Shown here: positions 19,305 through 22,907 of the stretch, in pieces
Position numbering within the stretch: position 1 is the stretch's first letter
Layout: the number at the start of each line of letters is the position of its first letter
Virus record (IMG/VR): IMGVR_UViG_3300005045_000040
Coordinates: 1 to 27,327 of that record
Source of the DNA: a virus
Reading direction: 5' to 3' (one strand)
Length of the DNA: 27,327 bases
Program-made: the position numbers and the translations under genes
The notes under the pieces: model-generated
What the model was told of the DNA's origin: nothing
The model's database searches: none
What the model saw: only the letters and a program-made list of their open reading frames with translations

Positions 19305-20804
19305 ATGCAACCCAAAAATCTACTGACTAAAGCTGCCCACTGGCTGCGTGGTGTACCCAATCAAGCGCCCCAGGAGCGCCACTTCACCGCCGCGCGCATA
19401 GACCGCCTCACCGCCGACTGGCAGGCCACCGAGCAAAGTCTGAATCACGAACTGCGCAGCGACCTCAACCGCCTGCGCAGCCGGGGCCGAGACCTGTTGC
19501 AAAACAACGATTACGCGGTGAAGTTCGCCGGCATGGTCAAAAACAACATCATCGGCCCCGGCGGCATCCGCCTGCAGATGCGTGTGGAAGACAGCCCCGG
19601 CAAGCAAGACAAGCTGGCCAACGCCGCCATCGAGTCGGCCTGGAAAGACTGGTCTAGCGCCTGCGACATCACCGGCCAGCAAACCCTGCGTGACCTGTGC
19701 GGCACCCTGGTCGGCGGCCTTCCCTCAGACGGCGAGTTTCTGGTGCGCCAGGTGCGTGGTGCGGAGTCTGGCAACAAATACGGCATCGCCCTGCAGTTGA
19801 TTGATGTGGACCGCATCGACACCACCTACAACCTGGCCGCCACCAGCACCAGCAACGCCGTCATCATGGGTGTGGAGGTCGATGCCTACCGCCGCCCGGT
19901 GGCGCTGCACATTTTTGCCAGCCACCCCAATGACGGCATCCAAAGCAGCCGCCAGCGCATCCGGGTTCCTATTGGCGAGGTGCTGCACCGCTTCAAGGTC
20001 GAGCGCGCCGAGCAAGTGCGCGGCATCCCGTGGATGAGCTCTGGCATGATCAGCCTACACCACTTGGGCAACTTCAAGTTGTCGGCCCTGCTGGCCGCCG
20101 AGCACGGCGCCAATCATTACGGCTTTTTTACCACCCCCGACGGCCAAAGCCCGATTGGTGGCCTTGACGAAACCGGCAAGACCATCAGCCCCAGCCAGCC
20201 CGGCACCTTTGACACCCTGCCCACCGGCGTCGGCTTTCAGCAGTTCAACAGCAAATACCCCGAGCAGAACTTTGGGCCGTTTGTCAAAACCACCCTGCAG
20301 CGTATCGCCAGCGGCTGGCGCGTGGCCTACCACAGCCTGGCCAATGACCTCGAAGGCGTCAGCTACAGCAGCATCAGATCCGGCGCGCTGGAAGAACGTG
20401 ACCGCTGGGCCGACGACCAAGAGTGGTTTATCGCCGCCTTCATGGAGCCGGTGTTCCAGATGTGGCTGCAAACCGCGCTCATCATGGGCGCCATCACCAT
20501 GCCCAACGGCAGCGCTTTGCCCGCTGCAAAAATCGCCAAATTCAGCACCCACGAATGGCAGGCCCGGCGCTGGGAATGGGTTGACCCCAAGGGCGACATG
20601 GACGCCAAGATTCTCGCTGTCAAGGCCGGCCTGATGGCCCCGCAAGACCTGGCCAACGCCATGGGCTACGACTTTGACGACACCCTCACCAGCATTGCCG
20701 CTGCCCAGGCTGCTGCCAAGTTGCTGGGCGTGCAGCTCACCGCCTACGACCCCACACCGGGTGCCCAAATCTCCATGACACCGCAACCCGCAGCCAGCGC
20801 CTAA
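19305..20804 (+). CDS. Portal protein, lambda gpB family (499 aa)
   Basis: The 499-aa product shows lambda-portal features: LRSRGRDLLQNNDYAVKFAG and VKNNIIGPGGIRLQM (about 57-93), the LCGTLVGGLPSDGEFLVRQV block, the conserved LQLIDVDRIDT and FKVERAEQVRGIPWMSSGM, and SYSSIRSGALEERDRWADDQ (350-370) with MEPVFQMWL. It would form the dodecameric ring through which DNA enters and leaves the capsid. It starts 12 nt after the connector gene and ends on the second 34-bp repeat. Confidence 0.9.
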   Translation: MQPKNLLTKAAHWLRGVPNQAPQERHFTAARIDRLTADWQATEQSLNHELRSDLNRLRSRGRDLLQNNDYAVKFAGMVKNNIIGPGGIRLQMRVEDSPGKQDKLANAAIESAWKDWSSACDITGQQTLRDLCGTLVGGLPSDGEFLVRQVRGAESGNKYGIALQLIDVDRIDTTYNLAATSTSNAVIMGVEVDAYRRPVALHIFASHPNDGIQSSRQRIRVPIGEVLHRFKVERAEQVRGIPWMSSGMISLHHLGNFKLSALLAAEHGANHYGFFTTPDGQSPIGGLDETGKTISPSQPGTFDTLPTGVGFQQFNSKYPEQNFGPFVKTTLQRIASGWRVAYHSLANDLEGVSYSSIRSGALEERDRWADDQEWFIAAFMEPVFQMWLQTALIMGAITMPNGSALPAAKIAKFSTHEWQARRWEWVDPKGDMDAKILAVKAGLMAPQDLANAMGYDFDDTLTSIAAAQAAAKLLGVQLTAYDPTPGAQISMTPQPAASA

Positions 20805-20858: not shown

Positions 20859-22907
20859 ATGTCAAAGAAACAAATCCCCGACACCCTCAAGCGGCATCTA
20901 GCCAGCGGAAAAGTTGAGCGCGCCCTGCTGGTCGAGCGCCAGGTGGTTGACGTCACCGCCCGCACCGTCACCCTGGCCTTTGCCAGCGAGACCCCGTATG
21001 AGCGCTACTGGGGCGTCGAGATTTTGGACTGCACCGCCCCAGCCATGCGCCAGGGCCGCCTGCGCAGTGGGGCAAATTTATTGTGTGACCACGATAGCCG
21101 AGATGTCGTCGGCGTTGTTGAGTCCGTCGAAATCGGCGCTGACCGCATTGGTCGCGCTGTGGTGCGCTTTGGCAAAAGCGCCCGCGCCGAAGAAGTCTTC
21201 CAGGACGTGGTGGATGGGATACGCCGCAACGTCTCGGTGGGCTACATGATCCACAAAGCGCAACTGGTCGAGACCAAGGAAGGTATGGAAACCTACCGCG
21301 TCACCGACTGGGAACCCTTTGAAGTGTCATTGGTCAGCGTGCCCGCTGATGCCAGCGTTGGGGTAGGCCGCAGTGCCGACGCCGATCTGGACAAAAAAGA
21401 CCTCACGGTGCAAGTGACCGTGTGGCAAAGCGACCCCAAGGACTGTACTGATTGCGCTGCCTGTGCTGCCTGTGCCGCCTGTGTTGCCATGCATGGCTGT
21501 TCTGACTGCGCATCCTGTGCTGACTGCGCTGACTGCGCTGTCATGCAGGCCTGCGTTGACTGCGCCGCCATGCAGGGCTGTACTGAATGCGCTGCCATGC
21601 AGGCCTGCGCTTCGACCCCAACCCCATCCACCTCTGAAATGAAAGCCATCATCATGCCTACCGAAAAAATTGAAGCCGTTGCCCAGCGCAACCACGCCGC
21701 CGAAATCTCCGCTATTGCCTCTGGCATCCCCGGCGGGGCCGACCTGGCCATGCGCGCCATCCAAGACGGCAAGACCGTCGAAGAATTCCAGCAAATCGCC
21801 ATCAAGGCGCTCAGCAACAAACCCCTGCCCACTGCCGACATCGGCATGAGCCGCGATGAAGTCAAGCGCTTCAGTGTGGTGCGCGCCATCAACGCCCTGG
21901 CCAACCCCGGCGACGCCGCCGCCCAAAAAGCCGCCGCCTTTGAGCGTGACTGCTCCGAAGCCGCTGCCAGCAAGATCGGCAAGCAATCTCGCGGGCTCAT
22001 GGTGCCCTATGACGTGCAAAAGCGTGACCTCACCGTGGGCGCCCCAACTGGCGGCGGCAACCTGGTCGCCACCGACCTGTTGTCGGGCAGTTTCATCGAC
22101 ATTTTGCGCAACGCCATGGTCATCAACACCCTGGGCGCACGCACGCTCACCGGCCTGAACGGCATGATCGCCATCCCCAAACAAACCGGCGCTGCTACCG
22201 CCTACTGGGTCGCTGAAAACGGCGCGCCCACCGAGTCGCAGCAAACCGTCGGCCAGGTCACCATGAGCCCCAAAACGGTCGGCGCGTTCAGTGACATCAG
22301 CCGCCGCCTGTTGCTGCAGTCCAGCATCGACGTCGAGGCCATGGTCCAGAACGACTTGGCCACCGTGCTCGGTCTGGCCATCCAGCAAGCCGCTATCAAC
22401 GGCCTGGGCTCGGCCAACCAACCCAGCGGCCTGCTCACCTTGATCACCCCCAGTGTGATTGGCGGCACCGACGGCGCTGCTCCCACCTGGGCCAACATCA
22501 TTGCGCTTGAAACCGCCATCAGCGCCGCCAATGCCGACATCGGTACCCTGGGCTACCTGACCAATGCCAAGGTGCGCGGAAAACTCAAGGGCACGGAGAA
22601 GTTTGCCACCACCAACGGCTCCCCGGTGTGGGAGGCTGGCAACACACCCCTCAACGGCTACCGCGCCGCGGTGACCAACGCCGTGCCAAGCAACCTGACC
22701 AAGGGCGCCTCTGATGTCGCCAGCGCCATCATGTTTGGCAACTGGGGCGACCTGGTGATCGGCATGTGGGGCGGGCTTGACCTGATGATTGACCCCTATA
22801 CCGGCAGCACCGCCGGAACCATCCGCGTGGTCGCCCTGCAAGACGTCGACGTAGCCGTGCGCAACGCCTTGTCGTTCGCCACCATGGTGGACGCCCTGAC
22901 GGCCTAA
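20859..22907 (+). CDS. Prohead protease fused to major capsid protein, with Cys-repeat linker (682 aa)
   Basis: Residues 20-170 are a U35 (HK97-type) prohead protease: LLCDHDSRDVVGVVESV with catalytic His78, RRNVSVGYM with Ser126, and EVSLVSVPADASVGVGR at its end. Residues 196-250 are a cysteine-rich repeat. Residues 261 to about 370 look like a scaffolding delta-domain (VAQRNHAAEISAIAS). From about 375 on is an HK97-fold capsid: TGGGNLVATDLLSGSFIDIL, MIAIPKQTGAATAYWVAENG, TVGAFSDISRRLLLQSSIDV. Fusion of protease and capsid is known in several phages. The protease would cut itself and the scaffold away during maturation. An internal ATG (21639 or 21654) might give capsid alone, but no strong ribosome site is seen. 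Confidence 0.9.
   Translation: MSKKQIPDTLKRHLASGKVERALLVERQVVDVTARTVTLAFASETPYERYWGVEILDCTAPAMRQGRLRSGANLLCDHDSRDVVGVVESVEIGADRIGRAVVRFGKSARAEEVFQDVVDGIRRNVSVGYMIHKAQLVETKEGMETYRVTDWEPFEVSLVSVPADASVGVGRSADADLDKKDLTVQVTVWQSDPKDCTDCAACAACAACVAMHGCSDCASCADCADCAVMQACVDCAAMQGCTECAAMQACASTPTPSTSEMKAIIMPTEKIEAVAQRNHAAEISAIASGIPGGADLAMRAIQDGKTVEEFQQIAIKALSNKPLPTADIGMSRDEVKRFSVVRAINALANPGDAAAQKAAAFERDCSEAAASKIGKQSRGLMVPYDVQKRDLTVGAPTGGGNLVATDLLSGSFIDILRNAMVINTLGARTLTGLNGMIAIPKQTGAATAYWVAENGAPTESQQTVGQVTMSPKTVGAFSDISRRLLLQSSIDVEAMVQNDLATVLGLAIQQAAINGLGSANQPSGLLTLITPSVIGGTDGAAPTWANIIALETAISAANADIGTLGYLTNAKVRGKLKGTEKFATTNGSPVWEAGNTPLNGYRAAVTNAVPSNLTKGASDVASAIMFGNWGDLVIGMWGGLDLMIDPYTGSTAGTIRVVALQDVDVAVRNALSFATMVDALTA
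21444..21608 (+). repeat. Cys-rich tandem repeat encoded in the capsid fusion
   Basis: Fifty-five codons (residues 196-250) hold 15 cysteines at 196, 199, 202, 205, 208, 214, 217, 220, 223, 226, 232, 235, 241, 244 and 250, every one in the same three-residue register. Units are C-x-x (DC, AC, SC) and a longer C-A-x-M-Q/H-x unit (AAMQG, AVMQA, VAMHG). The DNA has matching 9- and 18-bp near-repeats such as GACTGCGCTG and GCCATGCAGG, which suggests growth by slippage or unequal recombination. Confidence 0.9.

Follow-up and report, generated by a model that had tools for sequence, protein, structure and literature searches.

The window analysed here is the whole 27,327-nucleotide stretch of viral DNA, and all features described for the gene under study lie on its plus strand. 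Directly downstream of a portal gene (19305-20804), one reading frame (20859..22907) encodes a protein of 682 amino acids in which a prohead protease, a scaffold segment and a major capsid protein are fused. The S78 protease domain occupies 20859..21371 (residues 1-171, from the Pfam hit and alignment), with the PF04586 match itself at residues 72-165 (E 6.5e-9). In the same frame, the C-terminus carries the HK97-fold major capsid domain (22053..22886, residues 399-676; PF05065, Phage_capsid, E 3.6e-46), and the phrog_617 'major head protein' profile matches residues 24-676 (E 1.7e-154). Alignment of the fusion family shows an invariant S126 and a nearly invariant H78, which, by analogy with the S78 family, are the candidate catalytic pair of the protease. 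The intervening scaffold (delta-like) segment at 21654..22028 (about residues 266-390) is predicted to be helical from about residue 279 to 390 (10-residue blocks with mean pLDDT of 53-79) within an otherwise poor AlphaFold model (22 sequences, mean pLDDT 41.6).

The window gene is a member of the protease-scaffold-capsid fusions of the MD8 type (phrog_617). A fusion of this gp5 type has been described in Pseudomonas phage MD8 (PMC8508860) and, like the window gene, combines maturation protease, scaffold and HK97-fold capsid in one gene. It differs from the window gene in that no cysteine array is reported for MD8, and the description makes no mention of an internal start, cysteines or a linker (PMC8508860). 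Fusions of this three-part kind are present in many cultured phages, and three relatives were found in genome assemblies of Rhodoferax, Comamonadaceae and Hydrogenophaga; given the origin of these assemblies, the host of the window phage is probably a betaproteobacterium.

Between protease and scaffold lies a linker of 94 residues (21372..21653, residues 172-265), most of which is taken up by a Cys/Met triplet array (21444..21608, residues 196-250; CTDCAACAACAACVAMHGCSDCASCADCADCAVMQACVDCAAMQGCTECAAMQAC). The sequence-only reading had pointed out that the 15 cysteines of this tract fall in one three-residue register between protease and capsid, and we find sequence, coordinates, count and placement to be correct: all 15 are at positions 196+3n, and only 3 of the 18 cysteines of the fusion are found in the remaining 627 residues. 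What that reading had missed is that the four register positions without cysteine (211, 229, 238 and 247) are all methionine. Its placement of the tract between protease and capsid is right and can be stated more exactly, as the array ends 15 residues before M266, the predicted beginning of the scaffold segment. The exact chance that 15 cysteines in 55 residues all fall within one given register is 3e-10, and none of 100,000 shuffles placed 15 cysteines in any single register (maximum 12); since the single register is a consequence of the underlying DNA repeat, the shuffle test rules out scattered cysteines and nothing more. An identical array is carried by a second IMG/VR contig (3300015603_000054), which shares 19,338 bases with the window and differs from it there at one position. 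We considered an assembly artefact as the source of the array and rejected it on the basis of this second contig, which makes an assembly slip unlikely; the two contigs represent the same phage population, so the second one adds no evolutionary depth. The AlphaFold model is unusable for the array (pLDDT of about 30-40).

The array is encoded by a degenerate tandem repeat (21439..21611) with periods of 9, 27 and 54 bp, at which the repeat matches itself at 70-75%. Codons were compared with the consensus 9-bp unit, that is, between repeat copies of one population and not between phages. Seven changes were found in cysteine codons and all seven are synonymous, always T/C at position 3, while 13 of the 18 changes in the other array codons affect the first or second base (Fisher p 0.0016, a value that overstates independence because the repeat copies share ancestry). 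Taken at face value, this pattern would reflect purifying selection on cysteine. No register codon has been lost despite the decay of the repeat. The RNA fold of the linker was not notable relative to shuffles (z -1.7).

We collected fusions from viral contigs, cultured phages and genomes and compared the region between the protease end motif (VPADxxVGxGR) and the scaffold. A linker is present at this place in every member examined and varies freely in length and sequence. In 80 non-redundant relatives its median length is 28 residues (measurement limited to 70 codons); these linkers are of low complexity and rich in Ala, Glu, Pro, Thr and Ser, and cysteine makes up 0.1% of their residues. The suggestion that the tract spaces the protease from the scaffold is thus borne out, as relatives carry a linker at exactly that position. 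The sequence-only reading had also proposed comparison with homologous fusions, with homologues lacking the tract as the result that would speak against it, and this is largely what we found. Close homologues are without the tract and carry a short acidic stretch in its place. In the nearest relative (L002, 82-87% identical), this stretch reads DSEDSEDATEGTADEAGEAE, and the flanks on either side of it (VQVTVWQ and MPTEKIE) are kept. Length variation between phages, likewise anticipated, holds for the linker as a whole but not for the cysteine array, which was found in one population only and, in the sequences compared, is lineage-specific. Searches of viral contigs for the patterns CADCADC and AM[HQ][GA]CxxC returned, within protease-capsid fusions, the same population only, and a DNA search for the array in cultured phages yielded nothing beyond short, partial hits with weak E-values. 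Among the fusions examined, one other junction contains more than one cysteine, that of the distant protease-capsid fusion L346 (linker RILRPEVPAMRTCPHCHAPVSDAAAHVCPSCQRAL). Zinc-ribbon-like CxxC...CxxC stretches are present in L346 at two places, the protease N-terminus and the segment directly after the internal scaffold start (CPHC...CPSC).

Nearly every linker in the fusions examined ends in a methionine whose codon is preceded by DNA resembling a ribosome-binding site, which raises the question of translation starts within the gene. In 81 non-redundant fusions, the ATG examined was the first one in frame that is 10 or more codons beyond the protease motif, a choice in which the Shine-Dalgarno (SD) sequence played no part; 1146 further in-frame ATGs from inside these genes served as control. 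A core SD (AGGA, GGAG, GAGG or AAGG) precedes 75% of the first linker ATGs versus 5% of the control ATGs (Fisher p 7e-52, overstated since the fusions share ancestry), and the mean SD duplex energy is -5.0 versus -2.0. The cores lie mostly 6-10 bases from the ATG, as in aaaggaggttaaaATG and gagaggaggttgttATG from linkers of relatives. They occur in all three reading frames (30/20/11) and are therefore not a side-effect of a conserved peptide, indicating repeated selection for the site. An earlier control, which picked the best start within 60 codons (88% versus 54% at -4 kcal/mol), was too permissive and was replaced. A strong SD with an ATG in frame where linker and scaffold meet is seen, for example, in L299, L310, L343 and L264. 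In a distant relative (L388, 497-2472), protease and capsid are separate frames that part where the fusions have their internal start, and the capsid ATG overlaps the protease stop as ATGA behind AAAAGGG-type bases. Taken together, these comparisons provide good support for an internal start in the fusion family. Searches of the open-access literature gave no earlier report of internal initiation in fusions of this type, and we make no claim of priority.

In the window, the corresponding ATG (M266, 21654..21656) is a putative internal start by homology, its position and SD being conserved in relatives. Its own SD-like site is weak, consisting only of GAAAG (21641..21645) 8 bases before the ATG, with a duplex energy of about 0. 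GAAAG-N8-ATG is also the arrangement at the start of the gene itself, and the internal SDs of the nearest relatives (L002 and L003) are likewise weak. Initiation at M266 would yield a scaffold-capsid product without protease. Because the array is upstream of M266, it would be carried only by protease-bearing chains if this start is used, and most capsid chains would then probably lack it. To speak of a capsid protein that has such a linker is thus probably misleading, the predicted start conserved in the family being downstream of the tract.

A comparable arrangement is known from lambda, where the scaffold Nu3 is translated from a start inside the protease gene C and in its frame, giving protease-bearing and protease-free products. 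If its putative internal start is used, the window gene would resemble C/Nu3 in making both kinds of product from one frame; it differs in that the capsid is part of the fusion, whereas the lambda capsid protein E is encoded by a separate gene. The lambda-type hallmark, a conserved in-frame start with a ribosome-binding site at the scaffold boundary, is found in the family, and the window site is a weak instance of it.

We propose that the array is a lineage-specific repeat expansion in the protease-scaffold tether of a gene whose capsid chains are also made from an internal start, an explanation that we regard as fairly probable. A tandem repeat would have expanded within the variable linker between the S78 protease and the scaffold segment. 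Translation would also begin inside the gene at M266, just past the linker, as proposed for the other family members, so that one gene may give two products, a full-length chain and a scaffold-capsid chain. The former, probably the minor one (the ratio is a guess), would bring the protease into the prohead by means of its own capsid domain, and the latter would form most of the shell. Present only on the full-length chain, the array would act as a longer tether through which the protease reaches its cleavage sites, and it would presumably be lost at maturation, when protease and scaffold are cut away. One observation runs counter to a pure spacer, namely that cysteine codons are unchanged at positions 1 and 2 though their neighbours change. 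As an extreme natural linker, the array illustrates how much the protease-scaffold joint tolerates. The conserved internal start, if used, would explain how a phage that encodes protease, scaffold and capsid in one gene avoids attaching a protease to each subunit of the shell. Two products would then be expected in cultured relatives as well, such as Escherichia phage ECO1230-10, Pseudomonas phage Persinger and Vibrio phage VP882.

Alternatively, the array may have been selected as a metal- or thiol-binding element. With its 15 Cys, 4 Met and 1 His it would hold Zn, Cu(I) or an Fe-S cluster, and binding would make the tether fold or cross-link the protease chains within the prohead. We consider this possible but rather doubtful. 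Metal binding had also been put forward in the sequence-only reading and, like the anchoring role in assembly suggested there, is conjectural. A selected binding element would account for an array with Cys or Met at each of its 19 register positions and for the contrast between conserved cysteine codons and changing neighbours, although the latter is the test whose independence is overstated by the common ancestry of the repeat copies. The zinc-ribbon-like stretches of L346 are also in its favour, as they imply that cysteine elements entered the fusion gene more than once; yet L346 is the sole other multi-cysteine junction and its relatives (L348, L349 and L351-L355) are without the element. 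The array itself is kept in none of the relatives. High cysteine content and CxxC spacing are shared with metallothioneins, but no metallothionein or other metal-binding family was matched in Pfam up to E 10, the best PDB match had an E-value of 0.17, which is not meaningful, and metallothioneins are not known to be built as unbroken CxxC triplets. The more specific version, according to which metal loading of a selected tether would fold or cluster the protease in the prohead and thereby place head maturation under redox or metal control, is in our judgement improbable.

A weaker form of the repeat-expansion explanation is that the expansion is neutral and has no effect at all, the linker tolerating anything. 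It fits with the free variation of linkers and with a repeat confined to one population. What speaks against it is the history of the repeat, which has decayed to 70-75% while every register codon was retained. We hold an expansion without any effect to be unlikely. The chance microsatellite mentioned in the sequence-only reading is not quite apt either, as the repeat has had time to decay to this extent and cysteine codons have nevertheless changed only between T and C at the third position.

Capture from, or relationship to, the free-standing phage CxxC-triplet proteins of phrog_15341 is very improbable: that profile (37-95 of 276) does match fusion residues 194-251 (E 5.9e-7), such proteins occur in several phages and one of them (L216) contains CADCVDCTNCLDC...CASCAACASCTDC, but the match depends on cysteine spacing and low complexity, as is evident from the absence in the fusion of the N-terminal segment of those proteins, and the sequence on both sides of the array is that of the phrog_617 linkers of relatives. 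The two thus share a cysteine at every third residue and differ in that phrog_15341 proteins are small and free-standing with N-terminal parts of their own, the resemblance being one of periodicity only. An AlphaFold model of one CxxC-triplet protein (5 sequences, mean pLDDT 47) was unusable. Proteins of this kind that match phrog_15341 were seen in L205 (4030-9687), L196, L088 (2892-3977), L216 (1978-2391), L146 (2808-3173) and L078 (9600-11287). They carry about 10-46 cysteines in long runs behind a short N-terminal part, which in L205 and L146 is of the type WYDENNNSW...SPTLTNC. They often occur as tandem paralogues (one 41-kb record has up to 10 matches) and seem a more striking case than the window array itself.
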